This document shows positions 32,878 through 57,604 of a stretch of DNA of 64,000 bases, in pieces (the first letter of the stretch is position 1; every line of letters begins with the position of its first letter). Under the pieces are notes generated by a model. That model was given only the letters and a program-made list of their open reading frames with translations, searched no databases and was not told the origin of the DNA. The position numbers and the translations under genes were made by a program. The DNA lies in IMG/VR virus record IMGVR_UViG_3300027754_000045, positions 1 to 64,000 of that record; one strand, given 5' to 3'. Source of the DNA: a virus.

Positions 32878-34578
32878 ATGGCAACCCCACAAATAAATAT
32901 AGCTTCTTTGACTTTTGATGATATAAAGGCATCATTAAAAGCTTACTTAACACTTCCAGGTTCTCCGTTTTCTGTATATACTGGTAGTGCATTTGATAGC
33001 TTATTAGATGTTTTTGCGTATAATACTTTGTTTTATTCATTTTATAGTAATATGGTTGCTAATGAATCTTTTCTTGAAACTGCTTCAATAGAAAATAATA
33101 TTGTTTCTTTGTTAAAACCATTAGGTGTTTTTGTGGAAGGAAAACAATCTTCTTTGTGTGGAATTACTGCGAGTTCTATTACTGGCACTGTTCCAGTAGT
33201 ATCGTATTCTACTGTATTTAGTGGTTCTAACACATTAGGAGACTTTAAATTTTATTCTATTGATGATGTTACACTAACCACAACACCAACAAAAATAAAT
33301 TTATATGAATCAAAATTTTTAGTTAAAAATATTCCTATAGCCGTAGATATATCAAATCAAAAAGCATTTCTGGGAGACACAAATATCGATACAAAAACTT
33401 TGTCTGTATTTGTTAACGGAACTAAATGGTCTAAATTTAATAATACACAGATAAACACAGGACCAAATAGTAATATTTATTTTGTTGATAGGACATCTAG
33501 TGGGTTTTATTTAGTTTTTGGCAAAAAAACAATAAACGATTACCAATCATCTTACGGTAAGAACATATTAAATTCAGATATTGTTACTGTTTCGTATATG
33601 ACACCTTCGGGAACAATCTCTAACGAAATTACTACAATAATTAGTAATAATATTGTTATCAGTTCTACAAAAACAACTGGTGGAACTGATAAACCAGATT
33701 TAGATTTATTTCGCAGTTTTGGTCCAAAATTATTTGCTGCTAACGACAGAGCTGTTACTAAGGAAGATTATTATGGTATTTTGTTACAATATTCAGATCT
33801 TTCGTCTCTTATACAAACAAAAAATCAAATAAACATTTGGGGAGGAGACGAATTAGATCCTCCAATTTATGGTAGAGTGTTTGTTTCTTATTCGAATAGT
33901 GCTTTAACACAAACTTCTCCTATTGTTGTACAATCTATGGAATATCTTAAAAGTAAATCTATAGTTACGGTTATTCCCGAATATGTTCGAATGCAACCAA
34001 TTAAGATAAAATTTAAAGCTTTGGTGGCAAATACTTCAAATACCGTAGGAACAATTAAGAGTACAATAGAAGCATACTTTAATACAGTTAAAATATTCAA
34101 TAATCCTATAAACGACACAATCATTACTTCTGTTGTAAAAAGCCTTAGTCAATCCACAAATGCAACAGTTGCTGTGGATCCAAGAGAAACAACGCTATCT
34201 TTATTGGTCAACGGATCTACTACTACCAAGAATTTTTATTTTAAAACTGAGCTGAAACAGCCAGCAGTAAGCACAGTTGGCACTATTGTTAGTTCTGATA
34301 CCTTTCTATATAATACTATTACATCAGTAATAAAGGATGTTAGTAGTAGTGATTCTTCTGTTGTTATTGGTCAGTTGTTTGTATATAATAACGCAAATAA
34401 TCAACCACTCCAAAATTTAGGTTTTGTTAACTACAAAACTGGTTATATAACACTAAAACCAAACATTCTTCCTACAGCATCATCAATTAATATTAATGTT
34501 GTTCCGAAAAATTTTAATACAATTAATATAAAACAAGAATTAGTTCCAGAAGTAGAAGTAACTGTGGAAATATCATAA
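32878..34578 (+). CDS. 6: Baseplate wedge protein gp6 (566 aa)
   Basis: The N-terminus (SLTFDDIKASLKAYLTLPGSPFSVYTGSAFDSLLDVFAYNTLFYSFYSNMVANESFLETA) is diagnostic of gp6/gpJ-type wedge proteins that form the baseplate inner iris. The conserved middle (AANDRAVTKEDYYGILLQYSDLSSLI, then YGRVFVSYS) and C-terminal strands follow the family. About 100 residues shorter than T4 gp6 (660 aa), usual in aquatic relatives. An AATAAATA-like box ends 5 nt before the ATG. Confidence 0.92.
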   Translation: MATPQINIASLTFDDIKASLKAYLTLPGSPFSVYTGSAFDSLLDVFAYNTLFYSFYSNMVANESFLETASIENNIVSLLKPLGVFVEGKQSSLCGITASSITGTVPVVSYSTVFSGSNTLGDFKFYSIDDVTLTTTPTKINLYESKFLVKNIPIAVDISNQKAFLGDTNIDTKTLSVFVNGTKWSKFNNTQINTGPNSNIYFVDRTSSGFYLVFGKKTINDYQSSYGKNILNSDIVTVSYMTPSGTISNEITTIISNNIVISSTKTTGGTDKPDLDLFRSFGPKLFAANDRAVTKEDYYGILLQYSDLSSLIQTKNQINIWGGDELDPPIYGRVFVSYSNSALTQTSPIVVQSMEYLKSKSIVTVIPEYVRMQPIKIKFKALVANTSNTVGTIKSTIEAYFNTVKIFNNPINDTIITSVVKSLSQSTNATVAVDPRETTLSLLVNGSTTTKNFYFKTELKQPAVSTVGTIVSSDTFLYNTITSVIKDVSSSDSSVVIGQLFVYNNANNQPLQNLGFVNYKTGYITLKPNILPTASSININVVPKNFNTINIKQELVPEVEVTVEIS

Positions 34579-41821: not shown

Positions 41822-43168
41822 ATGAGTACTATTGGATCTAGTGTTGTTTCTGAATTATCATCAGAAAATTCTTCTGTTGGTTCTACTGGTCCTACTGGTC
41901 CTACTGGTCCTATTGGACCTATTGGTTCTGGTGCAACTGGTGCAACTGGTAATAGCGTTATTGGAATTAGTCTTGTTGATCGTTATATTATAACTACTTT
42001 TTTTGACGGAACTACTTACGGAACTTCAACACAAGCAATAGGTAAAACTGGGGATGGGCTTGTCAAATTAAATTTTTCTAATATTGGAACAGGTAATAGT
42101 TTAGGATATAATATAACAAATAATAAAACACTTGCTATACGACCAATAGTTTTTTTAGAAAACGAAAATTCAAAGTATAGCATAAACTTAAATTCAGAAA
42201 ATAATGCTTATGATATTAATTTAATAACTAATAGTTCTGGTATAACTTTACTTGCTGGAAGTTCATCAAATAAACTATTAACATTCAATTCTACGGGAAA
42301 ACCGCAAACACTAAACAATACATCTGTAAATGAATATGGTGTTAATTTTGTTTCTGCAAATATTTTTGAGTTTGTTCGTGGTGGTGGCTGGACTGGTTCT
42401 ACTGGAGCAATTAATTGTTTTGGAAGTGTTTCTGGTATTACTTGTATTTTAAATCCATGTGTGCCAGAATATGGTAAAATGTATGGTTCAAAATCTCACG
42501 TATATTATACTAATTTTAGAGGAATGACAGCTTCTATAGGAATAATCAACCCCCCAAACGACAAAAGGGTGTATGGATTTGATTTGTTCGTTCGTAATGC
42601 ATTAAATCCTACAAATATTTCTGAAAGGTTTGGTGACAACATTAAATGGTCTTTGAATAGGGCTCCTTGTTTTAGTTTTGGTGGTACTACTTGTGATTTA
42701 AAACTTTCTTTTTTTGGATTAGGAGGTTCTACTTGTTGGTATGGGTCGGCTGTTGCTATTCCAAATTTGAATAATAAAACTTGTCCTGGTCTTTCTTTGT
42801 TTGACTCTAGTTGCTCTGGAGATTCTAATTTTGTAGAAGCAGGAAGTGCTGTTCCTAAAAATATTAACGACATAGGAGCTTGCTGTAGTGTGGATGGTTT
42901 ATGTGTTGAAACTTACGCATCAGAGTGTTCTGGATTTTTCCATGGAGCAGGAACTACTTGCGGTAATATTAATAATTCTATTTGTAATAAAATAGGTGCT
43001 TGTTGTGTTTATATGCCTTCGTATTCTTGTTATGATTACTTAACTTGCACGGAATGTTTGGCTCTTGGTTATGATTCTTCTATTTCAACATTTTTTGGTG
43101 GAAATTTTAGTAATTGTAAAAATGTTAATTGTCTTGAGATAAGCAATAATTATTTTAATTTTTTATAA
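41822..43168 (+). CDS. Collagen-like, cysteine-rich tail fibre protein (448 aa)
   Basis: A short collagen-like tract (STGPTGPTGPIGPIGSGATG, about 21-40) follows an N-terminal helix. The middle is fibrous beta structure. From about 350 two cysteine modules occur: GACCSVDGLC ... C ... C, and GACCVYMPSYSC ... C ... C, each opening with G-x-CC. Such modules may form disulphides once the virion is outside the cell. Four neighbouring genes share this plan. Role is inferred: a fibre or adhesin. Starts 2 nt after the previous stop. Confidence 0.7.
   Translation: MSTIGSSVVSELSSENSSVGSTGPTGPTGPIGPIGSGATGATGNSVIGISLVDRYIITTFFDGTTYGTSTQAIGKTGDGLVKLNFSNIGTGNSLGYNITNNKTLAIRPIVFLENENSKYSINLNSENNAYDINLITNSSGITLLAGSSSNKLLTFNSTGKPQTLNNTSVNEYGVNFVSANIFEFVRGGGWTGSTGAINCFGSVSGITCILNPCVPEYGKMYGSKSHVYYTNFRGMTASIGIINPPNDKRVYGFDLFVRNALNPTNISERFGDNIKWSLNRAPCFSFGGTTCDLKLSFFGLGGSTCWYGSAVAIPNLNNKTCPGLSLFDSSCSGDSNFVEAGSAVPKNINDIGACCSVDGLCVETYASECSGFFHGAGTTCGNINNSICNKIGACCVYMPSYSCYDYLTCTECLALGYDSSISTFFGGNFSNCKNVNCLEISNNYFNFL
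41881..41952 (+). repeat. 9-bp collagen-coding repeats
   Basis: Tandem GGTCCTACT-type units code for Gly-Pro-Thr triplets; similar units occur at about 43235-43300 and, shorter, at 45626-45672. Prone to slippage or recombination between the fibre genes. Confidence 0.85.
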
Positions 43169-43171
43169 ATA
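43164..43171 (+). promoter_or_regulatory. Late promoter box TATAAATA inside the fibre operon
   Basis: An exact late element lies in the last bases of the upstream gene and just after, ending 4 nt before the ATG at 43176. Spacing is identical to the genes at 88 and 688. Confidence 0.7.
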
Positions 43172-43175
43172 TAAT

Positions 43176-45587
43176 ATGAGCAATTTTTATTCTAACAGTA
43201 CATTTAATATTAATTCCTTAGGTTTTGGTTTTGGTGCTACGGGACCAAAAGGACCTACGGGACCAACAGGTCCTACTGGACCTACTGGACCAACAGGCAA
43301 TAGTGGTATAGGATTAAAAAGAATTGATACATGGGTCACTAAAAATAATTCAGATTCAGTTACTATTGTTCTGTCTGACGAAACAAGTATTACTATTAAT
43401 GGTTTGTCTGGAAATTCGTCAGATTTTGATACTAATCTTTTTAATATAATAGGCAGTACTGCAGTTAGGTCATCATCAATAAATATTAATAGTAGTGTTT
43501 CTGGCTCTACTGCTTATTTTACTCCTTTGGCGGGTTTTGGTGAAATATCTCTTAGTAAAATATCAAACGATTTAGTTTTTCACGGAACTACTGCAACATC
43601 TGGTATCACTAATGTTATATTATACTCTAAGGGTAATACTTTAGCAAGTTTAATTGATTCTAGTGGAAATAATACACTATTTAAATATAATATTAATACT
43701 TTTGGTTCTACGACAAATTCTGTTGCAATAGCAAATTTATCTTCGTTTTTATTAAGAACATCTACTACAGGAATAACTAATCATAACGCAACAGCATCTT
43801 TTACTTCTGGAATTACTGGTATAGTTTCTAATTTTACCGATATGTCTGTTTACAACACAACTATTAGTAGTCAGGCTGTTGTGAGTAAACAATTTTATCA
43901 TAGTTCTAATCAAGACGTTAGATCTATTGTTAATTCTGCTGGTGAAGTACAGAACAGCGGAATAACTTCTTTTTTCAATACTATTTTTGCTAATATTTCT
44001 CAAGGAATTTCGTATGGATTTAGAAACTTTGGATCTTGTTTTTATAAAGGATGCAAGTGTTTAGACTACGCAACAAAAGAATATTGTGACACAATTGGCG
44101 GAACATTTTCCTCTTCTTCTCTATGTAGAGATATTGTGGGTAGTAGTCCTAATTCAACTGGTTCTTGTTGCCGAGGAATAACTTGCGTTAATACAACAGA
44201 AGCACAATGTGGTTTTGTTGGTGGTCACTGGGGTGGAAATAATACAAATTGTGCTGGAGCTTTTTGTGGAGGAGAGTTTACTCATATTGCAGCTGGATAT
44301 GATCATGCTGCTGTGGTTTATAAAAGTCCTAGTAATATAAATTATTTAATTGGCTGGGGACGAAATCTTGATGGTCAATGTAAAGGAACAACTTCCACTA
44401 ACGGAATCATTGTTAGTGAATCTGAAACAGCAATTCAACCACACGTAATAAAATTAAAGGGTCAATTTTTATCTAATATTAAAGGGGAAAGTTTGATATG
44501 CAGCGATTCGAAGACTGCGGTTATTAGTAATGATGGCAACATTATTATGATTGGAGGAAATACCGAATTAAGCCAGGCAAAGCTGAATCCAAACACAACA
44601 TTTGGTAGATCAATATATGGTACGTTAAATAGCAGTGGAACTCCTAATCTAGATCCTGGTTGCGTTAAAATACACGGAATTACAATAACAAATCCTACAC
44701 AAATTTCAATGTGGCACACAACTCATGCATTAATGCCTGATAAAACAGTTCGTACTTGGTGTGATCAAGGATATCAAGATGGTGCTTATAATGCAAGCAC
44801 TATGTTTGGTGTTAGTGGTAGAGGAGGAGGGCCTAATGGATTAACTGGATTTACTGCAGATTATGTTTATGCTGGACCATATGCAACATATTTTGCTCAC
44901 CAAAATGGAATGACGCATACTACGGTTTTTAACGAAACACCAGCGCAGTGCGATGGAAACCGCTTTGCCGTTGCTGGAGATAGATTGCAAACAAAAACTT
45001 GTGCAGGAGATGTTGCTGCTCCAGCATTTTATTATAATAGCGTTAATAATTTTCCTGGTTTATCTTTCGGGATACCTCTAGAATATTTTGGTAATAGTAA
45101 TGACTTGAAAGGAGTATTCAGAGTAAAACAATTTGTTGCTTCACGATCACAAATAGTTTGGTTGTCTTATGATCCTAGTGGTTCAACGAATTGGACTTAC
45201 ATCCAGAATCACCAAAATAAACCAGGAATGAAAGGACATTGTGGAGATGGGCGTGATGAGTCAGACAACGGAATAACATATGATGGAGATATTGCTTTTA
45301 CAAAATTAGCATCAGGAGCTTATCACATAATTGCCTTAAAGAATGACGGAAATATAATAGTATATGGAGAAAATGATTTGGGGGAATCTACTATTTCAGA
45401 TGAAGCGGACGAGGCTTCTAGAATTCGTGGAGTAAAATTTATAGATGTGGCTGCTACAGCTCATAATACATTTGTTCTTGGAGAAGACAGCATAATATAT
45501 GCTTGGGGTGATCCATTAACAAATTTAATTCAGAATGTGCCAAAAATAGAAGATATTCCAGCAATATTTAACAGAAGTCTATCATGA
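43176..45587 (+). CDS. Modular fibre protein: collagen, cysteine and RCC1 modules (803 aa)
   Basis: Order of modules: collagen tract (GPKGPTGPTGPTGPTGPTG, about 24-42); fibrous region; cysteine modules at about 286-365 (GSCFYKGCKC ... GGTF ... C, and GSCCRGITC ... GGHWGG ... C); then RCC1 repeats to the C-terminus (IAAGYDHAAVVYKS ... GWGRNLDGQC, LASGAYHIIALKNDGNIIVYGENDLGES, DVAATAHNTFVLGEDSIIYAWG). RCC1 propellers bind partners on their faces, so this may be the tip or a lateral adhesin. It has its own late promoter box. Overlaps the next gene by ATGA. Confidence 0.75.
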   Translation: MSNFYSNSTFNINSLGFGFGATGPKGPTGPTGPTGPTGPTGNSGIGLKRIDTWVTKNNSDSVTIVLSDETSITINGLSGNSSDFDTNLFNIIGSTAVRSSSININSSVSGSTAYFTPLAGFGEISLSKISNDLVFHGTTATSGITNVILYSKGNTLASLIDSSGNNTLFKYNINTFGSTTNSVAIANLSSFLLRTSTTGITNHNATASFTSGITGIVSNFTDMSVYNTTISSQAVVSKQFYHSSNQDVRSIVNSAGEVQNSGITSFFNTIFANISQGISYGFRNFGSCFYKGCKCLDYATKEYCDTIGGTFSSSSLCRDIVGSSPNSTGSCCRGITCVNTTEAQCGFVGGHWGGNNTNCAGAFCGGEFTHIAAGYDHAAVVYKSPSNINYLIGWGRNLDGQCKGTTSTNGIIVSESETAIQPHVIKLKGQFLSNIKGESLICSDSKTAVISNDGNIIMIGGNTELSQAKLNPNTTFGRSIYGTLNSSGTPNLDPGCVKIHGITITNPTQISMWHTTHALMPDKTVRTWCDQGYQDGAYNASTMFGVSGRGGGPNGLTGFTADYVYAGPYATYFAHQNGMTHTTVFNETPAQCDGNRFAVAGDRLQTKTCAGDVAAPAFYYNSVNNFPGLSFGIPLEYFGNSNDLKGVFRVKQFVASRSQIVWLSYDPSGSTNWTYIQNHQNKPGMKGHCGDGRDESDNGITYDGDIAFTKLASGAYHIIALKNDGNIIVYGENDLGESTISDEADEASRIRGVKFIDVAATAHNTFVLGEDSIIYAWGDPLTNLIQNVPKIEDIPAIFNRSLS

Positions 45588-46960
45588 GTATAAAAGGAAA
45601 TAGTATAATTACGGCAGGAACTTGCGGTTCTGTTGGACCAATTGGTCCTATTGGAAATACAGGTCCAAAGGGATCATTTAATTCTGCTACAGGTGGAATA
45701 GGTCAAACAGGAGCATATATTGATCAAGTTATTTCTGATTTAGAAAATAATACTATTACCTTTTATAGTTCTGATCAAAGAAATTGTATAAGTTTGTTTG
45801 GTTTTACTGGCTCAGAAACAAATACCTCAATTATCAGAGGTGTTTCTTCCTATATTAATCCTTTATATTTTTCTGCCTTATCTTCTATTATTGGTGGTTC
45901 TACCTTTGAGTTTTTTGGAATTTCTGGATCTGGTACAATTTCTGCGAATCTTTCTGCAGATAATAGAGAAATTTTATTATCAAGATCAGTATCATTTCCT
46001 AATATTGTATACGGAAACACCTCGTCAAATTTAATAATATACACAACACCTAGTTTTTCAGCAACAACTACTAAAATTGGTATAACTGGTGGAACCACAA
46101 ATCCAATTTTATATTTTGGATTAACTGCTCATAAAGGAGCAACCACAACAGACATAAATGTGTATTCTGATTTTACAGAATCTTATTATGAAATTAATTT
46201 TGGAATTACGTTGGGGTATTCTACTTCTGGTATCACTAATGATTCTGTTATTGTTGGAAATGATAATGGTGGATTAATACTAGACTTGAAAAATTACACA
46301 ACATACAAAATAAAAACCCCAATAGGAATTACTTCTATAATAGGCAATAGCCAATCAAACACATACCAATTTTACACCTTATTTATTGACGGTGCAGATG
46401 TTTGGAATTTTCCAAAAAATGTTAAATTTGATACAAGACAAAGTGGAATTAGTGGTCCTTGTTTTCTAGACGGAATGAATATAGTTAGTCTGTTTAGTAA
46501 TGATGGAGGAAGTAATTGGTTTGCTTCATTTGTTGCTAAAGGTGTCGGTGATTCAAACCTAACATACGATTATTCACAAATTGGTAGATGTACCAAAGAT
46601 GGTGTTTGTTTAGACCAACAAACAAGATTGTCGTGTAAAAACAATACTGGAACATTTGAATCTATGAAAATTTGTGACTCTAACGTATCTCATTGTGTAT
46701 TAGATTCAGTATGCAGCACGGATGAAGTAGAAACTAGTGTTTGTATAAGTCTTGGTGGTACTCCAGTAGCAAATTGTCCTGCTGCATTTAAAATTCTAAA
46801 TCCAACTTCAGTAACAATTGTACAACCAGAAACGTATAATATTACAGAAAAATATGTAACATATAAAAGAAATACAAAAAATAAAAAAATAAATAATAAT
46901 TGTGTTAGTATATGTTGTGATGGAATAGAACAATATTGTCAAAGCTTAGGAGATTGTTAA
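45584..46960 (+). CDS. Collagen-like, cysteine-rich tail fibre protein (458 aa)
   Basis: A short collagen-like tract (GSVGPIGPIGNTGPKG, about 15-30) is followed by fibrous beta structure and, from about 334, cysteine modules (GRCTKDGVC ... C ... GTF ... C and C ... C ... GGT ... C). Ends in a basic Lys/Asn patch and a final CC ... C. Similar in plan to the genes at 41822 and 43176 but lacking RCC1 repeats. Likely a paralog of those, diverged by domain loss or gain. Confidence 0.7.
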   Translation: MSIKGNSIITAGTCGSVGPIGPIGNTGPKGSFNSATGGIGQTGAYIDQVISDLENNTITFYSSDQRNCISLFGFTGSETNTSIIRGVSSYINPLYFSALSSIIGGSTFEFFGISGSGTISANLSADNREILLSRSVSFPNIVYGNTSSNLIIYTTPSFSATTTKIGITGGTTNPILYFGLTAHKGATTTDINVYSDFTESYYEINFGITLGYSTSGITNDSVIVGNDNGGLILDLKNYTTYKIKTPIGITSIIGNSQSNTYQFYTLFIDGADVWNFPKNVKFDTRQSGISGPCFLDGMNIVSLFSNDGGSNWFASFVAKGVGDSNLTYDYSQIGRCTKDGVCLDQQTRLSCKNNTGTFESMKICDSNVSHCVLDSVCSTDEVETSVCISLGGTPVANCPAAFKILNPTSVTIVQPETYNITEKYVTYKRNTKNKKINNNCVSICCDGIEQYCQSLGDC

Positions 46961-46961
46961 A

Positions 46962-48200
46962 ATGAGTATTCAATTTAGAGCAAGAACAATAACAAAAACT
47001 CTCGATAGTTATAGCCCTACTGTTTTAGAATCTGACATTGGGTGTTGTTGCCGAAGTACTAAAGCCACAAGTAATCAGTCATATCTAAGATCAAAATGTA
47101 TTTCTTCTGGTGGATATTTTACAAATGCTACTAATTGTGATGATTGTGATGATGATACTACTGCAGCATGTCCTGCCGCATTTAACTTTCTTTCTAATAA
47201 TTCAGGATCTTGTTGTTATTCTTATAAAGAAAATAATATATATTATTTTAATTGTGTAAATAAACAATCTGATATTGAGTGTTTAAATATTCACGAAGGA
47301 CGGGAAGAAGGTATTAAATATAAATTTACACCTAATAGTAATTGTGAAGATAATTTGCCTTGTACAATGAATAAACAATTAGGAAATTGTTGCACACAAC
47401 AATTAGACAATTCTGTTTTGTGCTCTATATCTCAAAGAAAACAGTGTAGTGGTTTTTGGTCTCGTAATGATTATATTCAATCCTGTTCTGGATCTACTCA
47501 TTGTAATGGCGTATATTTTTCTGGAGTTACCGCAGAAAGATCTTCAGCAATTGCTGTTTTGTCAGAACTACAATTATCAAATAATCCTATAGAAAAATTA
47601 CCAGAACCAAACAGCATTTATCAAGGAGGATTATATGTTGGAATATTTGTTCCTGGAACACCAATAAACTCGATAGGATCTAAAGTTTTTGGAAATCCTT
47701 TATCTGGTATGCCCAAAGAATACACAGCAAGGGGGAATACTAATAAAACAAAAACCTCTAGCTGGATATTAATAGCAGCACAGCAAGATTTCCCAGTTCC
47801 AAAAAATTGCAAAATGAGTTCAATTACACTTAACAATTCCTCTTACGACGGAGCATTTAATACAAATAAATCAACTTACGTAAAAGATGATTTGTATGAT
47901 AAAGTTAAAAATTTTTCATATAATGGATTTAATGATTGGTATATCCCAAGTCAGGACGAACTAGCATTTTATGCCAAAACTACAGTTAATTATAGTGATA
48001 TACCATATTTTATTAAATTTCACGAATCGTTATATCTGTCGTCTACTGTATATTCTGAAAACCAAAATCAAAGCTTTAAGAGTAATTATTTAGTATATTC
48101 ACAGAATTTTAATAAAGAAAATTATGGAGAAGTTTCTCTTGTTTCAAGAAATACTTTTGTAAATATTCGTCTTTTTAGAAGAATTTATTTAAAAAATTAA
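46962..48200 (+). CDS. Cysteine-module protein with DUF1566/lectin-like C-terminus (412 aa)
   Basis: It has three N-terminal cysteine modules starting at about 27 (GCCCRS), 83 (GSCCYS) and 141 (GNCCTQ), each with a later C ... GG/GF ... C. The C-terminal ~230 residues contain SWILIAAQQDF ... AFNTNKSTY and GFNDWYIPSQDELAFY (about 322-337), followed by LYLSSTVYSEN and VRLFRR-like end (VNIRLFRRIYL). This is the Lcl/DUF1566 pattern (DWYIPS-x-DEL), related to C-type-lectin folds such as Mtd of Bordetella phages. That points to a receptor-binding tip. No VR/TR template repeat was seen. Confidence 0.72.
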   Translation: MSIQFRARTITKTLDSYSPTVLESDIGCCCRSTKATSNQSYLRSKCISSGGYFTNATNCDDCDDDTTAACPAAFNFLSNNSGSCCYSYKENNIYYFNCVNKQSDIECLNIHEGREEGIKYKFTPNSNCEDNLPCTMNKQLGNCCTQQLDNSVLCSISQRKQCSGFWSRNDYIQSCSGSTHCNGVYFSGVTAERSSAIAVLSELQLSNNPIEKLPEPNSIYQGGLYVGIFVPGTPINSIGSKVFGNPLSGMPKEYTARGNTNKTKTSSWILIAAQQDFPVPKNCKMSSITLNNSSYDGAFNTNKSTYVKDDLYDKVKNFSYNGFNDWYIPSQDELAFYAKTTVNYSDIPYFIKFHESLYLSSTVYSENQNQSFKSNYLVYSQNFNKENYGEVSLVSRNTFVNIRLFRRIYLKN

Positions 48201-48225: not shown

Positions 48226-48813
48226 ATGGGATGTAATTGTAATAAAAATAAATCTTTACAAAACGTCAATACAAACAAAATTAATATGGAAAATGTAAAT
48301 AAAGAAAATAGCAGTCCTATAGAGTTTCGTAAAGAAGCAATAAATGATAAAAAAACTATTTCTGATAAAATAGGAATGGTTAAAAGTTTCTCTAGGGCTA
48401 TAGTTAGTAGAGGATTTAATAACGAAAAAATAAACAAACCAACAAAACAAATAAGAGCTTTGAGTTGTTTTGGCAATTTACAATCTGGAGGAGAACTTCC
48501 TCCTTGTGAGTTTTTAAAGAACAGCCAAACACCGAATAAATTTTTCTGTGGTGGATGTGGTTGTGGCGACAAACCACAAACTTGGTTGACTATTGAAGGA
48601 GAAGCTTATAGTAAATTAGATTATCCTAAACTATCTTGTCCATTAAAGATGCCTGGATTTTCTAATTACGAATCTAGCGCACCAGACGAACAAACCGTCC
48701 CAATAACCAGGAGATATTACATAGAGCAAATTAATTTTGAAGAAGTTTTGAAGGTGTATGTTACTTCCCCCGATCCAATCGTAGTTCCAGACCAACAACC
48801 AAAATCAGAATAA
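48226..48813 (+). CDS. Cysteine-rich protein of unknown function (195 aa)
   Basis: Starts MGCNCNKNK, a short Cys motif seen in many small phage proteins. A disordered Asn/Lys stretch follows, then a second Cys cluster (ALSCFGN ... PPCEF ... FFCGGCGCGDKPQTWL, about 82-120), a plausible metal or Fe-S/zinc site. A TAGGAG site precedes the ATG. It lies between the fibre genes and the neck operon. Confidence 0.6.
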   Translation: MGCNCNKNKSLQNVNTNKINMENVNKENSSPIEFRKEAINDKKTISDKIGMVKSFSRAIVSRGFNNEKINKPTKQIRALSCFGNLQSGGELPPCEFLKNSQTPNKFFCGGCGCGDKPQTWLTIEGEAYSKLDYPKLSCPLKMPGFSNYESSAPDEQTVPITRRYYIEQINFEEVLKVYVTSPDPIVVPDQQPKSE

Positions 48814-49654: not shown

Positions 49655-50602
49655 ATGGCAGTAAATCCATATTTTAAAAAGGATTATTCTGGTCAACAAG
49701 ATATTGTTGAAGAGCTTACTATAGAAATAATTAAAACTATGGGAAGAGACATGATTTATATTCCCAGAAATATTTTAGAAACTGATCTTTTGTTTGGGGA
49801 AGGCAATATTGTTAATTATAATACTGGTATTCCGTTAGAAATGTATATAGATTCTGTGTCTGGTTTTGACGGTCAGGGAGATATTTCTACTAAATTTGGA
49901 ATAGAAATTAAAGATAATATTAATTTAACTTTATCCAAAAAAAGATTCAATCAAGAAATTACAAATTCTTTCTCGCAAATAACAAGACCAAGAGAAGGTG
50001 ATTTAATATATTTTCCATTAGCAAAGGCTTTATTTGAAATCAATTTTGTTGAACACGAAAATCCATTTTATCAATTTGGAAAATTATTTTGTTACAAATT
50101 AATATGTGAGTTGTTTACTTATAATCAAGAAGAAATTTCTACAGGCAATACAGATATAGATAGTGTTCAGGAAGAACACCAAGAAGCTATTACTATACTA
50201 CAATTAACCAATATTTCTGGTCAGACCTTATCATTATATCAAGGAGAGACGATATATCAAGTAGACGGTATAACTGGAAATTTGGCAACAATTGATAAAC
50301 AAACTATGACAGCAGTTGTTCTTTCAAAAATGCCTTATTTAAGCGGAAATACAGCATCTATAGAAATAAGCAATATTAATGGAACTCTAAAAACTTCTAA
50401 TGTATTTACGCAAACCATCAAAGGAAGTTCTAGTAATTTAGAATTTTATGCAACTTCCAAAACTATTTCACAATCAATTGCAATCAAAAATAATATTGGT
50501 AATGTCTTAGAAGGTGATAACGATATTCTATCACTAGAAAATGAAATTAAAAATGTTATAAATTATTCAGAAAAAGATCCATTTTCAGAAGGTAAATATT
50601 AA
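49655..50602 (+). CDS. 14: Neck protein gp14 (315 aa)
   Basis: Follows the gp14 pattern: VNPYFKKDYSGQQDIVEELTIEIIKTMGRDMIYIPRN, then LLFGEG, AIPLEMYIDSV-like GIPLEMYIDSVSGFDGQGD and the CYKLICELFTYNQEEI region. It pairs with gp13 in the neck. Begins 1 nt after gp13, and the next gene starts at its stop (TAATG), indicating translational coupling. Confidence 0.92.
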   Translation: MAVNPYFKKDYSGQQDIVEELTIEIIKTMGRDMIYIPRNILETDLLFGEGNIVNYNTGIPLEMYIDSVSGFDGQGDISTKFGIEIKDNINLTLSKKRFNQEITNSFSQITRPREGDLIYFPLAKALFEINFVEHENPFYQFGKLFCYKLICELFTYNQEEISTGNTDIDSVQEEHQEAITILQLTNISGQTLSLYQGETIYQVDGITGNLATIDKQTMTAVVLSKMPYLSGNTASIEISNINGTLKTSNVFTQTIKGSSSNLEFYATSKTISQSIAIKNNIGNVLEGDNDILSLENEIKNVINYSEKDPFSEGKY

Positions 50603-51282
50603 TGTTTACTCATTTTAAAAACGATTCAATTAGGAAATTAGTTGTCGGATTTGGTAATTTGTTTAATGGTATTATTATCGAACAAATTAATGCAGACAAT
50701 AGTAAAAGAATGTTTAATGTTCCTTTGTCTTATGCTACAAAAGAAAAATTTATAAAACGATTGACTGATAATAGTTCTATTACTGATACTACACGTATAG
50801 AGATTGGTGTACCTCAAATGGCATTTGAGTTACAAGGAATGGTTTATGATTCTGCTAGAAAACTAAATAAACTTTCTAAAAAAATTAATATTAGCTCTAA
50901 TTTAAATACAGCTGGTGTTTTGTATAGTGAAGTTCCTTATAATTTTACATTTAATGTTTATGTTTATACTAGAAATATAGAAGATAATTTACAAATATTA
51001 GAACAAATTTTACCACATTTTTCTCCTGAATTTATAATTTCTTTAAACATGAACGAACTTAATACTTCTGTAGATATACCGATTGTTCTTGTTGAAACGA
51101 ATTTGTCTCAAAATTCTGAAGGAAGTTTTGATGACAGGAGAAATATTATTACTACTTATCAATTTTTGGCGAAGTCTTATATATATTCTGGAATCAAAAC
51201 AGATCAAACTATTAGAGATATACAAGTGACTACTAAAAATTTACCATTTACATTCACTGATACGTTTGGTTTGACTGGATAA
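50602..51282 (+). CDS. 15: Tail completion/sheath stabiliser gp15-like (226 aa)
   Basis: The pattern THFKNDSIRKLVVGFGNLFNGIIIEQI ... FNVPLSYATKEKFIKRL is that of gp15, which caps the tail and joins it to the neck. It continues with MAFELQGMVYDSARKLNKL and a C-terminal DDRRNIITTYQFLAKSYIY. Length is near T4 gp15 (272 aa). Located in the T4 order between gp14 and gp16. Confidence 0.88.
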   Translation: MFTHFKNDSIRKLVVGFGNLFNGIIIEQINADNSKRMFNVPLSYATKEKFIKRLTDNSSITDTTRIEIGVPQMAFELQGMVYDSARKLNKLSKKINISSNLNTAGVLYSEVPYNFTFNVYVYTRNIEDNLQILEQILPHFSPEFIISLNMNELNTSVDIPIVLVETNLSQNSEGSFDDRRNIITTYQFLAKSYIYSGIKTDQTIRDIQVTTKNLPFTFTDTFGLTG

Positions 51283-51285
51283 AAA

Positions 51286-51726
51286 ATGAACGATGATATT
51301 ATCTCAAAATCTTTAGGGTTATCCTTTTCTGGTGCAACAGGAGACATAGTTGCAGTTTCTTCAAAAAATTTAGGAATTGAAAATGATTTTGATTATGCTC
51401 GTGAAAATATAAAATCATTAATTAATAATGGTTCTGATGCAATAGACGAAATTATAAAAATAGCAAAGGCTGGAGACAACCCAAGAGCGTTTGAAGTTGT
51501 AAGTCTTTTGTTAAAAACTGTAGCAGATATGAACAAAGATCTTATAGATCTTTATCAAAAAACTAAAATTGCAAAAAAAGAAGACGTTACTGTTAATAAT
51601 ACTACCAATAATTCTATATTTGTTGGTTCTACAAGCGAATTACAGGATTTAATTAACAAAGATCGTAGTAGAATTAAATCGACAAACAGTCAACATTTTT
51701 TAGAAAATAATAGTGATGGGAAGTAA
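51286..51726 (+). CDS. 16: Terminase small subunit gp16 (146 aa)
   Basis: Central helices (DFDYARENIKSLINNGSDAIDEIIKIAKAGDNPRAFEVVSLLLKTVADMNKDLIDLYQK) form the gp16 ring-forming coiled region that recognises concatemeric DNA and feeds it to gp17. Flexible ends. Overlaps gp17 by about 11 bp. Confidence 0.9.
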   Translation: MNDDIISKSLGLSFSGATGDIVAVSSKNLGIENDFDYARENIKSLINNGSDAIDEIIKIAKAGDNPRAFEVVSLLLKTVADMNKDLIDLYQKTKIAKKEDVTVNNTTNNSIFVGSTSELQDLINKDRSRIKSTNSQHFLENNSDGK

Positions 51727-53398
51727 AAAAAAACACGGATATCTTGGTAATCCTAATTTAAAACAAATTAGTACTGAAGTAGAATTTACCAAAGAACAAG
51801 TTGCCGAGTACATGAAATGTGCAAATGATCCTATTTATTTTATTAAAAAATACATAAAAATTGTTACTTTGGACAAAGGATTAGAACCATTTGAACTTTA
51901 TGATTATCAAGAAAAGATGGTTGAAACGATTCAAAATAATCGATATGTTATTGCAAAGCTTCCACGCCAGACAGGAAAAACTACAACAATTGTTGCCTGG
52001 TGTGTTCATTACATTTTATTTAATCAAAGCGTAAATGTTGCTATTTTGGCTAATAAATTAAAAACTGCATTAGAAATTATGAAGCGATTGAAAGAAGCAT
52101 ATGAATATCTTCCAAAATGGCTTCAGCAAGGAGTAGTAGAATGGAACAAAACATCTATTCAAATAGAAAATGGATCTCGTGTTATTGCATCTGCTACCTC
52201 TGCCAGTGCGGTTCGTGGTGGTTCGTATAACGTAATTTTTTTAGACGAATTTGCACACGTTCCTTCAAACATAGCAGACGATTTCTTTAGTTCAGTTTAC
52301 CCTACTATTACTTCTGGACAAACAACTAAAGTTATTATAGTTTCTACTCCTAATGGTATGAACATGTTTTATAGTTTGTGGCAAGGAGCAATTCGTAAAG
52401 ACGGAGAAGAAGGAAAAAGTGAATATGTTCCAATTGAGGTTCATTGGGGACAAGTTCCTCTTTATCCTACAGGACCACTTAGGGACGAAAAATGGAAAGA
52501 AAGAACTATTAAACAATTAGGTGGAGGAGCAGGAGGAGAACAGAGATTTCAAAGCGAGTATGAGTGTGATTTTATTGGTTCGTCTAATACTTTAATTTCC
52601 ACATCAAAGCTTCATAATTTGACTTACAAAAAACCAAAATCAAAATCAAAAGAAGGACTTTGGGTTTATGAAGAACCAGAAGAAAAAAAAGCATACGTAT
52701 TGACTGTAGACACATCAAGAGGTCAGGGTAAAGATTATAGTGCAATATTAGTTTTTGATGTTTCTGATACTCCGTATAAAATAGTTGCAAAGTATAAAAA
52801 TAATATAATTTCTCCAATGTTGTTTCCTACTATGATATATGCTTTAGGAAAAAAGTATAATACGGCTTATGTTTTGGTAGAAGTAAATGATATTGGTGGG
52901 CAAGTTGCAGACATTCTTCATTATGATTTAGAATACGACAATGTTTTAATGAGTACTAATAAAGGCAGAAGTGGTCAGGTACTGAATGGAGGGTTTGGAA
53001 AGGGACAAACTGTTTTTGGAGTTCGCACTACTATGCCAGTCAAAAAACTTGGTTGTTCTATACTTAAAAGTTTAATAGAACAGGACAAACTTCTAATTGA
53101 AGATGAAGAAATTATTCAAGAATTATTGACTTTTGTTTCCAAACACAATACTTATGCCGCAGACGATACTCATACTGATGATTTAGTTATGTGTATGGTG
53201 TTGTTTTCTTGGTTAACAAAACAACCATACTTTAAGGACTTGACTAGTGTTGACATTAGAAAAGAACTTTTTGAGGGGGAAATAAAGAAAATAGAAGAAG
53301 ATGATTGGTTTAGTTTTGGTTTTATTTCTAATGTAGACGAAAATATAGACATTTTGCCTACAGAATCAAAAGACGAAGACTTTTGGCATAAACTCTAA
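51716..53398 (+). CDS. 17: Terminase large subunit gp17 (560 aa)
   Basis: The DNA-packaging motor ATPase and headful nuclease. Walker A LPRQTGKTT at about 82-90, Walker B VIFLDEF (about 173-179) with catalytic Glu after Asp, followed by a coupling STPNG motif (about 210-214). The RNase H-like nuclease has VLTVDTSRGQGKDYSA (about 328-343), and an Asp pair near DDTHTDDLVMC (about 482-492) completes the metal site. ATG 51716 is preferred to the adjacent GTG at 51713. Length is near T4 gp17 (610 aa). Confidence 0.97.
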   Translation: MGSKKKHGYLGNPNLKQISTEVEFTKEQVAEYMKCANDPIYFIKKYIKIVTLDKGLEPFELYDYQEKMVETIQNNRYVIAKLPRQTGKTTTIVAWCVHYILFNQSVNVAILANKLKTALEIMKRLKEAYEYLPKWLQQGVVEWNKTSIQIENGSRVIASATSASAVRGGSYNVIFLDEFAHVPSNIADDFFSSVYPTITSGQTTKVIIVSTPNGMNMFYSLWQGAIRKDGEEGKSEYVPIEVHWGQVPLYPTGPLRDEKWKERTIKQLGGGAGGEQRFQSEYECDFIGSSNTLISTSKLHNLTYKKPKSKSKEGLWVYEEPEEKKAYVLTVDTSRGQGKDYSAILVFDVSDTPYKIVAKYKNNIISPMLFPTMIYALGKKYNTAYVLVEVNDIGGQVADILHYDLEYDNVLMSTNKGRSGQVLNGGFGKGQTVFGVRTTMPVKKLGCSILKSLIEQDKLLIEDEEIIQELLTFVSKHNTYAADDTHTDDLVMCMVLFSWLTKQPYFKDLTSVDIRKELFEGEIKKIEEDDWFSFGFISNVDENIDILPTESKDEDFWHKL

Positions 53399-53409
53399 AA
53401 AACTAAAAA

Positions 53410-53417
53410 TATAAATA
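53410..53417 (+). promoter_or_regulatory. Late promoter box TATAAATA for the sheath gene
   Basis: Exact match, giving a leader of about 45-50 nt before the gp18 ATG at 53471, with an AAGGA ribosome site. High, leadered late expression of the sheath is expected. Confidence 0.75.
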
Positions 53418-53470
53418 TACAATAAGGCAACAATAATCATTAATTCTAATTTTAAGGAAAATAATTAATC

Positions 53471-54610
53471 ATGGCATCATTCGAAGAGGCATCAACACTT
53501 ATTGCAGGAATGATATCATTTAACGGTTTAATACCTATTTTTGGTATTACTGGTTCTGATGGTAGTTCCGAAACAGAAATAGGTATTATGACGATTCCTT
53601 CGTATAATAACTGGTTGGCTAGACTAAACGATAGTTCATACAAAAATACGGGGCCTACTGGTGCTTGGGCTGGAGAGTGGTGGAGTATCTACAATTATCT
53701 TCAATATGGAGGTATTTGCGTTGTTGGAAGTACGGGGTCTACTGGGGCATATTTCGTACAAAATGGTGTTTTGGATCCTTTAGCTACACCACTACATAAC
53801 GCAAATTTAATAAATATAGATGTTGTTTTTGATGGAGGAAATGCAAATTCTTCTATATCTGCTGCCAGCATAGCAAACACAAGAAAAGATTGTTTAGCCT
53901 TTTTGGGAAACAATAAATTGATGGTTATACCTACTGGTTCTGGATACACGTTTCATGGTAGAGATTTTGGTGTTACCGCTGGTAGTGAATACGTTTGTTA
54001 TTTTGCTGGTCGTAAAAATTCAATCAATGATGTTTCTGTTCCGTCTTCTGCTGACCCGATTAAAACTAGTCCAGGATCAGATGCTGCTGGGTGCTTGGCA
54101 AGAACATTCAGAACAAACAATAGGTGGACTAGTCCAGCTGGAACCACGAGAGGACGAATATTGAGTGTTGTTGCATTAGAACAAACTATTACTGAACCCG
54201 AATCATCAAGTTTGTTATTGGGTGGTGTAAATCCTATAATACCAATTAATAGTTCTGGATATATTTTAATGGGAAACAAAACTAGTTATACTGGAACAGA
54301 AGCACTTAAGAATATTCATACTATAAATTTAATTATATTTTTAAAGAAAGAATTAAAAAATATATTAGACAATTATTTGTTTGAACAAAACAACGAAGAA
54401 ACTCGACTAAATATATCAAATTCAGTAAAACCTATTCTTAACAACATACTGTCTTCTGGTGGTATACTAAGTTATGCTGTTGTTTGTGACTCTGTAAACA
54501 ACACAGATAATATTATATCTCAAGGAAAATTAATAATAGATTTGACCATAAAACAATCAGTAACTGCAGAAACTATAGTAATAAACTTTATAATTGATGC
54601 TAGTATTTAA
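53471..54610 (+). CDS. 18: Contractile tail sheath protein gp18, short form (379 aa)
   Basis: Recognised from position between gp17 and gp19 and from sheath-like segments: ISFNGLIPIFGITGS near the start, AGEWWSIYNYLQYGGICVVGS (about 66-86), a central domain with DCLAFLGNNKLMVIP, and the C-terminal sheath fold (KNIHTINLIIFLKKELKNILDNYLFEQNNEETRLNI ... TAETIVINF). T4 gp18 is 659 aa, so the outer variable domains are largely absent. The contracting core is kept. Confidence 0.88.
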   Translation: MASFEEASTLIAGMISFNGLIPIFGITGSDGSSETEIGIMTIPSYNNWLARLNDSSYKNTGPTGAWAGEWWSIYNYLQYGGICVVGSTGSTGAYFVQNGVLDPLATPLHNANLINIDVVFDGGNANSSISAASIANTRKDCLAFLGNNKLMVIPTGSGYTFHGRDFGVTAGSEYVCYFAGRKNSINDVSVPSSADPIKTSPGSDAAGCLARTFRTNNRWTSPAGTTRGRILSVVALEQTITEPESSSLLLGGVNPIIPINSSGYILMGNKTSYTGTEALKNIHTINLIIFLKKELKNILDNYLFEQNNEETRLNISNSVKPILNNILSSGGILSYAVVCDSVNNTDNIISQGKLIIDLTIKQSVTAETIVINFIIDASI

Positions 54611-54621
54611 AAGGAATTAAA

Positions 54622-55176
54622 ATGGCAGGAAATCATATAACAGACTTTATTACTAAATTTGGTGGTGGCACAAGACAAAACAGATTTCTTGTTTCTGGTA
54701 GTATTGGTGGTAGAGGCACTACTAAATTTTCTGATTTTACAAAAAATCAAATTCATGTCAGAGCAGCTAGCCTTCCTGCTTCTACTATCTCAGTAATTCC
54801 AGTTAATTGGAGAGGAAGAACGGTCAATTATCCAGGAGATAGAGTATATTCGCCATGGCAGATAACAGTTCTAGACGACAAACCAAAGGGCAAAGAAAGG
54901 CTATTTGAAGCATTTCATGCTTGGAGTAATGAAATAAATGATCACGGAACAAACGTTTCTAAATCTTTGGATTTAAAAAATCATTTCAGTACTGATTGGT
55001 CAGTAAGTCATTTAGACACTAATGGAAATACCACAAATAAACGCAATTTTATTTTAAAAAATTGTTGGCCAATTACCATTGGTGAAATTAGCCTAGATAT
55101 GGGAGCGGATAATACTCTTGTTAGTTTTGCAGTGGGTATAGCGTATAGTCACTTTGAATATGATGCAGTAACTTAA
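54622..55176 (+). CDS. 19: Tail tube protein gp19 (184 aa)
   Basis: Pattern: FGGGTRQNRFLVSGSIGG, FHVRAASLPASTISVIPVNWRGR-like (IHVRAASLPAS), YSPWQITVLDDKPKGKERLFEAFHAWSNEIN and the end VSFAVGIAYSHFEYD. gp19 stacks as hexamers to form the tube through which DNA passes. Directly after the sheath gene with an AAAGGA site. Length near T4 gp19 (163 aa). Confidence 0.95.
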   Translation: MAGNHITDFITKFGGGTRQNRFLVSGSIGGRGTTKFSDFTKNQIHVRAASLPASTISVIPVNWRGRTVNYPGDRVYSPWQITVLDDKPKGKERLFEAFHAWSNEINDHGTNVSKSLDLKNHFSTDWSVSHLDTNGNTTNKRNFILKNCWPITIGEISLDMGADNTLVSFAVGIAYSHFEYDAVT

Positions 55177-55185
55177 ATTTGAGGA

Positions 55186-55193
55186 TATAAATA
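55186..55193 (+). promoter_or_regulatory. TATAAATA box immediately before the portal ATG
   Basis: An exact late box ends only 2 nt before the ATG at 55196 and shares bases with the gene's GAGGAT ribosome site. A transcript from it would start inside the portal gene, so it may serve downstream genes or be fortuitous. Confidence 0.4.
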
Positions 55194-55195
55194 TT

Positions 55196-56785
55196 ATGGA
55201 ATTAGAATTATTTGGTTTTACAATAGGCAAAAAAAAGGCACAGGAAAATACTCCTGTAAATCCCGAAGTCATTACTCCCGACAGTTATGATGGTTCTTAT
55301 GTTTTAGAAACTGGTGGAGTTTTTGGAACATTTGCTGATTTTTCTGGAAATGCCAGAGACGAAAATCAATTAATTACTCATTATAGATCTATGGCATTGC
55401 ATCCAGAAGTGGATGCTGCTATTGAGGATATTGTTAATGAGTCTATTGTGCTAGATTTGGACAGAAAACCTATCAAGTTAGATTTAGATAGAGTGAATCT
55501 TTCTGAAGTTATTAAAACTAAAATTTATAGTGAATTCAATCACATATTAAAACTTTTAGATTTTTCAAACAAATCTCATGATATTTTTAGAAGATGGTTT
55601 ATTGATGCCAAGACATTTTATTATAAAAAAATTGATAAAAACGATATTCGAAAAGGTATTATTGAGTTGGTTCCTATTGATCCTGTGAAGATTAAAAAGG
55701 TCAGAAAAGTAGAAAAGGATAAGACTGTTTATGGTGGTGCTGCTCCTTTTTCCCCGATTAAAAGTATTCAAGAATATTATGTTTATACTGACACAGATAA
55801 GGAAGCAAACTTTCCAACAAATCCAACGGGATGGAAAATTGCACCAGATACAATTGCTTATGTTCATTCTGGTATTATTGACTCCACCACAAAACGTGTA
55901 GTTGGTTATTTGCAGAAGGCAGTTCGACCCCTAAATCTTCTTCGGCAGATTGAAGATGCTGTAGCCATCTACAGAATTTCTCGTGCTCCAGAACGACGAG
56001 TATTTTACGTAGACGTTGGTAATTTGCCAAAGCAAAAGGCAGAACAATATCTTCGTGAAATCATGAACCGATATCGTAATAAAACAATTTATGATCCTAG
56101 CACTGGCGAAATCAAAGATGAGCGTAATCATATGAGCATGCTCGAAGATTACTGGATGCCTCGACGTGATGGTGGTCGTGGTACAGAAATCAGCACTCTT
56201 GATGGTGGTCAAAATCTTGGTCAAATGGATGATGTTAATTATCTACTACAAAAGCTTTACCGAGCTCTTGGTGTTCCCCTATCACGCATGATGCCTGATG
56301 GTGGTTTTAATATGGGCAAAAGTGCTGAGATTACTCGTGACGAAGTTAAATTTAATAAATTTGTTGACCGTTTACGACAACGATTTAGCAGTATATTTTT
56401 TGATCTTTTAAAGACTCAAGTAATTCTTAAAGGGTTGATGACTGAAGAAGATTGGAACAGAATTGTTCAAGATATTGGTTTTAAATTTAATAATGATTCT
56501 TATTTTGCTGAACTCAAGAACAACGACATTCTTCGTGAACGTCTAGACATTATTGCTGCTGTGACTCCTTATGTTGGTCGTTTCTTTTCTGCAGAGTATG
56601 TTCGTAAGAATTTCTTGAAACAGACCGATGAGGACATTATTGAAATTGACGCACAGATAAATAGAGAAATGCAGAAACAAATCGAAGCGCAAGAAGCACA
56701 GGCATATCAGCAAATGTTAGCAGGAGAAGAGCCTGGTCAAGAAGAAGAACAACAGCCAGAAGGCGAACAACCACCCCCACAATGA
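55196..56785 (+). CDS. 20: Portal protein gp20 (529 aa)
   Basis: The dodecameric vertex through which DNA enters and leaves. Diagnostic segments: DENQLITHYRSMALHPEVDAAIEDIVNESIV, RRWFIDAKTFYYKKID, LRQIEDAVAIYRISRAPERRVFYVDVGNLPKQKAEQYLREIMNRYRNK, MLEDYWMPRRDGGRGTEISTL, and ALGVPLSRMMPDGGFNMGKSAEITRDEVKFNKFVDRLRQRFS. The C-terminus is acidic and Gln-rich. Length is close to T4 gp20 (524 aa). Overlaps the next gene by ATGA. Confidence 0.97.
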   Translation: MELELFGFTIGKKKAQENTPVNPEVITPDSYDGSYVLETGGVFGTFADFSGNARDENQLITHYRSMALHPEVDAAIEDIVNESIVLDLDRKPIKLDLDRVNLSEVIKTKIYSEFNHILKLLDFSNKSHDIFRRWFIDAKTFYYKKIDKNDIRKGIIELVPIDPVKIKKVRKVEKDKTVYGGAAPFSPIKSIQEYYVYTDTDKEANFPTNPTGWKIAPDTIAYVHSGIIDSTTKRVVGYLQKAVRPLNLLRQIEDAVAIYRISRAPERRVFYVDVGNLPKQKAEQYLREIMNRYRNKTIYDPSTGEIKDERNHMSMLEDYWMPRRDGGRGTEISTLDGGQNLGQMDDVNYLLQKLYRALGVPLSRMMPDGGFNMGKSAEITRDEVKFNKFVDRLRQRFSSIFFDLLKTQVILKGLMTEEDWNRIVQDIGFKFNNDSYFAELKNNDILRERLDIIAAVTPYVGRFFSAEYVRKNFLKQTDEDIIEIDAQINREMQKQIEAQEAQAYQQMLAGEEPGQEEEQQPEGEQPPPQ

Positions 56786-57195
56786 GCACCGCAAATAGAC
56801 TAGTCCAGATGATTCTTAGGGGTAAACCCGATCAATTTAATACTGTTATTAAGGAGTATTTGAATGATCGAGCTTCTATTATGATGGAGCAAGTCTATCT
56901 AGAAGAGAGTAAAAATATACTAAAATTATTAGAACCTATTCAAATTCAATTAGAATCATTAAAGCCAGAACCAATTGTAATGACTCAATTTGTCCCTGAA
57001 AATTCATACCAATTACGAGACGGAGCTGTTGGTATTTTGGACGAATCTCAACAAGATTCCGTGGGTAAACTATATAAAAGTCTAAATACTGATAACAGGC
57101 AACGTTTAGTTAAATTACTCTCAGAATCACAAGAATCATTTAATCGCATATTAAATTTAGCAAAAATAGAAAGTACTAAAAATGGAAACAAATAA
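56782..57195 (+). CDS. Prohead core-region protein of unknown function (137 aa)
   Basis: A helical, charged protein in the position of the T4 core genes 67/68 between portal and protease. No motif recognised. Overlaps gp20 by 4 bp and the next gene by 14 bp. Function as an assembly-core component is inferred from place alone. Confidence 0.65.
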
Positions 57196-57601
57196 TCAAA
57201 TTCACTCATTTATTCGACTAGTTATGAACGAAAATCTTGCTCAAGCACAGGGAGTGATTCGTGACACTCTTAATGAAAAATTGAATGCTGCTCTTGATGA
57301 AAAGTTTGAAGCTTATGCTCCTGCTATTTTTGAAGAACTAGATCCTGTCGGAGAAGAAGATGGTGATATTGATAATGATGGAGATGAAGACAAAACCGAT
57401 GGTTATCTAAAGAATCGCCGCAAAACTGTTAGTGCTGCAATAAATGAAGAAGGCGAAGAAGAAGGCGACGAAGGCGGCGAAGAAGAAGGCGAAGAAGGCG
57501 AAGAAGAAACCACTCAATCTGCTCCTCCAGTTCAAAACTCTATGCCTCAGATTATGCCACAATCTGGTGGTTCTAGCTCTTCTGATTCAGATGGATATTA
57601 A
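57182..57601 (+). CDS. 67: Acidic prohead core protein, gp67-like (139 aa)
   Basis: A helical N-terminal half is followed by a loop [17 protein letters not shown] (about 60-76), like an EF-hand/dockerin calcium-binding loop, and a highly acidic stretch of Glu/Gly repeats (about 90-110). Acidic composition and position before gp21 fit T4 gp67 (PIP), a small acidic core protein digested by gp21. The Ca-loop is common in aquatic T4-like homologs, from memory. Confidence 0.7.
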
Positions 57602-57604
57602 TTC

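Follow-up and report, generated by a model that had tools for sequence, protein, structure and literature searches.

A six-cysteine module common to four predicted fibre genes of an uncultured T4-like phage, its inheritance and its candidate relatives

Four adjacent genes (A to D, 41822-48200) of the IMG/VR virus record IMGVR_UViG_3300027754_000045 were analysed within bases 1-64000 of that record; this stretch of 64,000 nucleotides is called the window, and the complete record comprises 153,850 bases (153.9 kb). The four genes carry eight copies of a module of about 40 residues with six cysteines, of the form G-x-C-C...C...C...GxF...C...C. Judged from the sequence comparisons, it is the distal heads of the encoded proteins that are swapped and not the modules, an account that replaces an earlier idea of module shuffling. 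By the reading towards which we lean, the modules would act as disulphide-stapled connectors between the stems and the exchangeable host-binding heads of a fibre cassette.

The module, its genes and their locus

The family hidden Markov model (HMM) was started from an alignment of the eight window copies and iterated over relatives, which yielded 173 modules (E ≤ 1e-3) in 76 open reading frames (ORFs) of 34 records; this set includes near-identical contigs, and L009-L012 were dropped from it as copies of the window. With this HMM the copies A1, A2, B1, B2, C1, D1, D2 and D3 were found at domain E values of 1.1e-3 or better, and nothing better than E 0.024 was found in the rest of the record. 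Residue-shuffled ORFs of the window and of its relatives gave no match at E ≤ 1e-3 (best 0.065 with the phage HMM and 1.9 with an HMM made from bacterial modules alone). The latter HMM recovered A1 (2.3e-4) and B2 (6.8e-4), with C1 at 0.06, B1 at 1.3 and A2 at 38. The vicinal cysteine pair (CC) is present in six of the eight copies (A1, A2, B2, D1, D2 and D3); B1 reads GSCF, at a position where relatives have GSCC, and C1 reads GRCT. Among 169 unique aligned modules the first five cysteines were present in 167, 162, 160, 167 and 166 and the sixth in its aligned column in 90, counts that are biased by the HMM selection. Most cysteines of the gene D modules were invariant, or close to it, across 31 sequences.

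The initial annotation, which was made from the sequence alone, had described four adjacent genes with a recurring cysteine module, and the ORFs and the family HMM bear this out. The conservation of the cysteines between copies and in relatives, on which it had made the idea depend, was found, and the module alignment and HMM that it had suggested could be built. It had given two to three copies for each gene; the counts for A, B, C and D are 2, 2, 1 and 3, so that gene C has a single copy. Its literal pattern, G-x-CC followed by spaced cysteines, proved too narrow, with one match among the eight copies (B2 only) and none in 2000 shuffles of the four proteins. The domains that it had joined to the modules were recovered in part: collagen-like tracts are present in A, B and C and RCC1 repeats in B, and the lectin-like head of D, which lies under the Pfam cut-off, is supported by its fold, but D has no collagen-like tract. 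Structure prediction, also suggested there, gave a confident fold for the module pair of gene A (AlphaFold2, 117 related pairs; mean predicted local distance difference test score (pLDDT) 91, predicted template modelling score 0.76), each module consisting of a few short strands and a short helical turn; the disulphides themselves remain putative.

The products of A, B and C share one layout, in which a short collagen-like Gly-X-Y tract (13-21 residues) is followed by a conserved stem of about 250 residues and then by the cysteine modules. B and C are paralogous over the whole stem (window B against gene C of L018, 25% identity over 445 columns), and the orthologues of gene A in L016 and L018 are 51-52% identical to it over 431-445 columns. 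The RCC1 repeats of gene B were matched by PF13540 (7.1e-12, 45.2 bits against a Pfam cut-off of 22), which identifies repeats only and does not imply a full propeller.

Two further candidates for modules were rejected. The CC of gene C (SICCDG) sits in a C-terminal peptide of 29 residues that is common to relatives. The gene at 20761-21618 on the minus strand encodes a protein that ends in a truncated module-like tail (GSC...C...GGNYF), and as a ninth module this tail is not significant by HMM (E 1.3).

Families of the gp6 type and other baseplate wedge families were found at 32.9-37.5 kb, upstream of A-D (phrog_219, 3e-59), and genes for neck, head-tail adaptor, head closure, sheath stabiliser, terminase, sheath, portal and capsid follow from 48.9 kb, downstream of A-D (profile matches Ad2, 1.8e-36, and Hc2, 6.8e-64). 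From these two blocks the phage was classed as T4-like. The gene order is A, B, C, D, a gene for a protein of 195 amino acids with eight cysteines (48226-48813), and the neck gene; at the position of the 195-residue protein, relatives with and without the module cassette likewise have an eight-cysteine (sometimes nine-cysteine) protein. A-D thus lie between the baseplate wedge genes and the neck genes. In pelagimyophages and cyanomyophages this interval has been described as a host recognition cluster (PMC7029224), variable and with reported collagen repeats and domains that bind carbohydrate. That text nowhere uses the word 'cysteine', whereas here four genes share a six-cysteine module. A-D are therefore taken as a fibre cassette in a host-recognition locus, and their products are predicted to be host-binding fibre parts.

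That A-D encode surface or secreted factors of the infected cell and not virion parts is very improbable. The cysteine content would suit such factors, as would the fact that bacterial proteins carrying extracellular domains contain the module too, but the genes stand in a structural operon, the collagen-like stem of gene B matches the phage fibre profile phrog_5073 (2.1e-7), and no signal peptide or other export signal was evident when the N-termini of A-D were inspected by eye.

In isolated phages, megablast with 49655-60651 gave no match, and tblastn gave none for gene A (E limit 0.01), gene D (0.1) or the four-module array of L067 (1); for module B2 only weak matches (E ≥ 1) in portal and polymerase genes were obtained. 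The whole of gene B was found in viral contigs at two related loci, both near-identical to the window.

Inheritance of the modules and exchange of the heads

Relatives were collected with the neck gene as anchor, which gave 64 loci. Modules were present upstream of the neck gene at 36 of the 46 scorable loci (window included) and absent at 10; the cassette, or that part of it which the contig covers, was present at 35 of the 46. One of the 36 is L028, whose lone module belongs to a small gene other than A-D. Many loci, moreover, sit at the end of a contig and show no more than gene D or a partial cassette. Where enough DNA was available, the order A-B-C-D, small eight-cysteine protein and neck gene recurs. 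The heads differ between loci, so that both module presence and heads vary as in a hypervariable host recognition cluster. Presence and absence of modules were placed on a neck-protein tree, which excludes 16 loci with short upstream DNA, the window copies L011 and L012 and the partial L070; L073 stands on a very long branch. Parsimony requires six changes, and well-supported branches make at least four of them unavoidable, so over time the cassette has both appeared and disappeared.

At two loci without the cassette (L026, 1938-3580; L028, 2256-3571) a small cysteine-rich gene is followed by a larger gene with a conserved C-terminal cysteine cluster. The small gene of L028 holds one clear CC module.

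The nearest neighbour of each module was determined at 18 loci, where genes were lettered according to their position, so that those of L056 and L072 could carry wrong letters. It lay in the same-lettered gene for 133 of 144 modules (42 expected) and in the same genome for only 3; with neighbours limited to less than 50% identity, the same-lettered gene was still found for 114 of 144 (40 expected). As nearest neighbours stay in the same gene and are hardly ever from the same genome, the modules are old and, mostly, vertically inherited with their genes.

These counts bear on the proposal of the initial annotation that shuffling of cysteine modules between the four genes serves host-range change. 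The same module does occur in four neighbouring genes, B and C share a paralogous stem, and a gene that has modules may have from 1 to 7, but the distribution of nearest neighbours weakens the proposal, which is rejected for the majority of copies and is now considered quite unlikely. Two other elements of it fared better. Parts are exchanged in genes whose locus fits fibre or adsorption functions, since the stems and modules are conserved while the distal heads that follow them come and go; and the suggested comparison of related phages did reveal gain, with extra copies (up to seven) in gene C of some lineages, besides a cassette that comes and goes. An effect on host range may follow from such exchange.

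The exchange is clearest in gene B. When the window protein was compared with other loci, the match ended at the second module (ORF residue 375), and the sole overrun, to residue 397, was against a truncated gene C of L015. Among the B genes of the 14 other loci compared, eight end immediately behind the second module (369-382 amino acids), while L016 and three more have long, different tails; by blastp, none of these 14 genes matched the RCC1 head. Compared with gene C of L016 and L018 (ORFs of 1257 and 1327 residues), gene C of the window has kept ORF residues 1-402 and the final 29 and lacks the roughly 800 residues in between. An ORF as long as that of the window is also present in contigs L009 and L010, which makes an assembly error confined to this record improbable as the cause of the junction.

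The position of the modules is the strongest argument for a connector role: the conserved part of gene B ends at the second module, and what lies downstream differs or is missing. Each module would form a separate micro-domain of about 40 residues with up to three disulphides, and would serve as a compact, rigid and protease-resistant link between a trimeric stem and a receptor-binding head (RCC1, lectin-like or other); several modules in line could form rods. Because each module would be self-contained, heads could be added, lost or replaced behind it with the stem undisturbed. The proteins would be made in the cytoplasm and, as no export signal is evident, their cysteines would probably oxidise once lysis frees the virions.

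Several results weigh against this proposal. Gene A ends in modules and has no head in the window. Gly-X-Y runs of at least four triplets are absent from gene D, whose modules precede the head without a collagen-like tract. B1 and C1 have lost cysteines, which indicates that the module can decay. Fold searches with the module pair (Foldseek, VIA-align) returned no convincing match (best Z score 2.6), and the whole record gave no match to thioredoxin or DsbA. The Evr1_Alr (sulphydryl-oxidase) search was uninformative, as it matched none of its controls. A connector role would provide a concrete way of reading head exchange in uncultured T4-like phages, and it raises the question of the oxidation route.

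The head of gene D was modelled with 31 sequences (mean pLDDT 78; first 80 residues poor). Residues 199-408 matched 8q4e, the C-terminal domain of Legionella Lcl (Z 10.1, root-mean-square deviation 2.8, 123 residues aligned), and a Bacteroides fimbrial protein (Z 10.7, deviation 3.9 over 178); C-type lectins scored about 5.5, below Lcl, and DUF1566 models of uncultured phages were matched at 4e-6. Gene D was not assigned to the Lcl-type adhesins, because its Lcl_C match lies under the Pfam gathering score (24.2 against 34.9 bits) and because a collagen tract of its own is missing. The Lcl domain has been described as trimeric, C-type-lectin-like and collagen-stalked, and as binding sulphated glycans (PMC11162425). 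The phage gene shares the Lcl C-terminal fold, and its neighbours supply collagen-like tracts; it differs in the three cysteine modules before the head, the Lcl head being without disulphides in that same description. On the predicted structure, a glycan-binding head is a well-grounded working likeness for gene D.

Relatives of the module in bacteria and in iRhom proteins

No Pfam family exceeded its cut-off over the module stretches in the proteins scanned, and 42 modules gave only single stray matches to NCBIfam and PHROGs (E 0.035 or weaker). A fixed-spacing DNA pattern was matched in at least 117 stretches of bacterial genomes; among the matches listed, 94 are from Planctomycetota, 13 are unplaced and 10 are from other phyla. 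Counts over five whole genomes, made with one fixed pattern, gave at least 149, 144 and 148 matches in three Planctomycetota genomes and 17 and 13 in two genomes filed as Bacteroidota and Myxococcota. The phage HMM found 457 modules (E ≤ 0.01) in 116 of the 117 listed stretches, which had been preselected by the motif pattern; conversely, 69 phage modules, including A1 and B2 of the window, were recovered by the bacterial HMM at E < 1e-3. With a looser pattern 45 viral stretches were collected, 37 of them with modules by HMM and many with collagen-like tracts. Six bacterial module proteins were scanned for domains: three have domains of an extracellular kind (LTD, lamin-tail; VWA; TSP_3, thrombospondin-3, with dockerin), one gave a stray weak match and two gave nothing.

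In the Planctomycetota repeats the six-cysteine spacing and the G and GxF positions are the same as in the phage, and the repeats form arrays at intervals of about 41 residues. The bacterial copies are regular and stand in large proteins, some with extracellular domains, whereas those of the phage have diverged further and come after collagen-like stems. One planctomycete protein (L153, 2-1978) has ten pattern matches at a spacing of about 41 residues, and the genomes of L101, L139 and L142 encode proteins with up to ten or more CC modules at the same spacing, with over 140 matches reached in a genome. A literature search on tail fibres, planctomycete cysteine-rich repeats and the iRhom homology domain, which covered less than full texts, found no description of the module. 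A small cysteine domain thus appears to have been missed by the curated family libraries, though single planctomycete genomes hold more than 100 matches.

This abundance invites the reading that the modules themselves bind the receptor, the phage using a module that is plentiful on a planctomycete-like host surface for module-module contact or ligand competition. The Planctomycetota counts just given would fit it, as would the proteins that end in modules without a head (gene A and eight of the 14 other B genes). It is nevertheless unlikely: the portal protein is closest to those of cyanophages and a pelagiphage (about 51% identity), the phage modules are inherited vertically within their genes and are not recent host copies, and the genome scan used one fixed pattern and counts stretches among the matches listed.

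When the PDB (177,635 distinct sequences) was searched, the best match was iRhom both with the phage profile (1.8e-6) and with the independent bacterial profile (2.6e-4). Only iRhom1 and iRhom2 fell below E = 1 with either profile; the next, unrelated match was at 1.5. The cysteine spacings x7, x13 and x4 are equal in iRhom and the module. With the cysteines excluded, iRhom segments scored z 4.4-5.4 against shuffles (the segment being picked by its score, a choice for which the shuffle p is uncorrected), inside the range of 60 true modules on the same cysteine-free score (z 4.2-8.7, median 6.7). The iRhom homology domain (9xy4, 8snl) is thus the sole clear profile match in the PDB, with fitting spacings and non-cysteine positions. 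It differs in belonging to a eukaryotic, here human, membrane pseudoprotease and in having two widely separated copies, one of them incomplete. The fold search with the module pair did not list iRhom, a point against the link, though not a decisive one for a domain so small.

Papers on the iRhom proteins call the fold of this domain unprecedented or unique (PMC11248996, PMC10148629, PMC8233286) and describe an ectodomain held by eight disulphides (PMC11248996, PMC12184519), which favours disulphides in the module family. It is conceivable, at somewhat less than even odds, that one disulphide micro-domain is common by descent to the Planctomycetota repeats, the T4-like fibres and iRhom, with the phage using it as an oxidation-locked connector for head exchange and with the iRhom ectodomain being of bacterial-repeat origin. 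This would offer a testable sequence link for an ectodomain that is described, in the iRhom papers cited, as having no known relatives. What would surprise a specialist here is the module family together with its link to iRhom.

Binding of zinc or another metal by the cysteines in the cytoplasm, with no disulphides formed, was also weighed. The cytoplasm in which phage structural proteins are synthesised is reducing, each copy offers 4 to 6 cysteines, and the record encodes no recognisable DsbA or thioredoxin; all of this would suit a metal site. The module alignment, however, has a vicinal CC at 96% and no conserved His or Asp ligand in its columns, a combination unlike that of usual zinc sites. 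The bacterial relatives moreover occur in proteins with extracellular domains, and the cysteines of the iRhom ectodomain, in the papers cited above, form disulphides. Metal binding is judged improbable, and disulphide-stapled connectors remain the preferred reading.

Feature coordinates and other genes of the window

The coordinates of the cassette features are collated in Table 1.

Table 1. Genes, modules and other parts of the cassette (window positions).
Feature	Position	Strand	Content or basis
Gene A	41822..43168	+	448 aa, 21 Cys; collagen-like tract 41888-41950, stem, two C-terminal CC modules
Module A1 (GACC...C)	42875..42985	+	family HMM; bacterial-only HMM 2.3e-4; AlphaFold2 pair
Module A2 (GACC...C, longer loop)	42995..43132	+	family HMM; AlphaFold2 pair; bacterial-only HMM E 38
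Gene B	43176..45587	+	803 aa, 18 Cys; collagen-like tract 43242-43298, stem, two modules, RCC1 head
Module B1 (degenerate, GSCF for GxCC)	44031..44126	+	family HMM 6.8e-7; HMM seeded by window copies
Module B2 (GSCC...C)	44160..44267	+	family HMM; bacterial-only HMM 6.8e-4
Distal RCC1-repeat head of gene B	44304..45584	+	Pfam RCC1_2 7.1e-12; blastp
Gene C	45584..46960	+	458 aa, 16 Cys; short collagen-like tract 45635-45673, stem, one module, junction
Module C1 (GRCT, without CC)	46583..46696	+	family HMM 2e-6; bacterial-only HMM 0.06
Possible degenerate second module of gene C	46697..46777	+	second-module position in orthologues; domain E 97, not significant
Conserved C-terminal peptide of gene C, with non-module CC	46871..46957	+	66-69% identical to L016/L018 C-termini
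Gene D	46962..48200	+	412 aa, 20 Cys; three modules, C-type-lectin-like (Lcl/DUF1566-like) head
Module D1	47040..47147	+	family HMM 1.1e-3; cysteines conserved in 31 gene D sequences; structure model poor here
Module D2	47205..47363	+	family HMM; conserved cysteines in gene D alignment
Module D3	47382..47504	+	family HMM; conserved cysteines in gene D alignment
Lectin-like head of gene D	47556..48197	+	8q4e fold match; invariant residues in 31-sequence alignment

The gene at 27388-29247 joins RCC1 repeats (RCC1_2, 9.9e-14) to an N-terminus that resembles baseplate gp53 (Phage_gp53, 6e-7); together with gene B, this places RCC1 repeats in at least two structural genes of the phage. A protein of 2210 amino acids with 68 cysteines, a cysteine-rich C-terminus and no PHROG match is encoded at 14119-20751, and a short RCC1-like stretch in it resembles the head of gene B (4e-5). 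The RCC1 regions of these three genes were considered as mutual copies, and this was rejected, as only weak similarity was found (best 0.015 and 4e-5). The gp6-like baseplate gene at 32878-34578 has a weak alginate-lyase match below the Pfam cut-off (22 against 29.7 bits). The gene at 8526-9281 matches DUF3293 and, weakly and below the cut-off, S-adenosylmethionine lyase, and is a possible anti-restriction gene.

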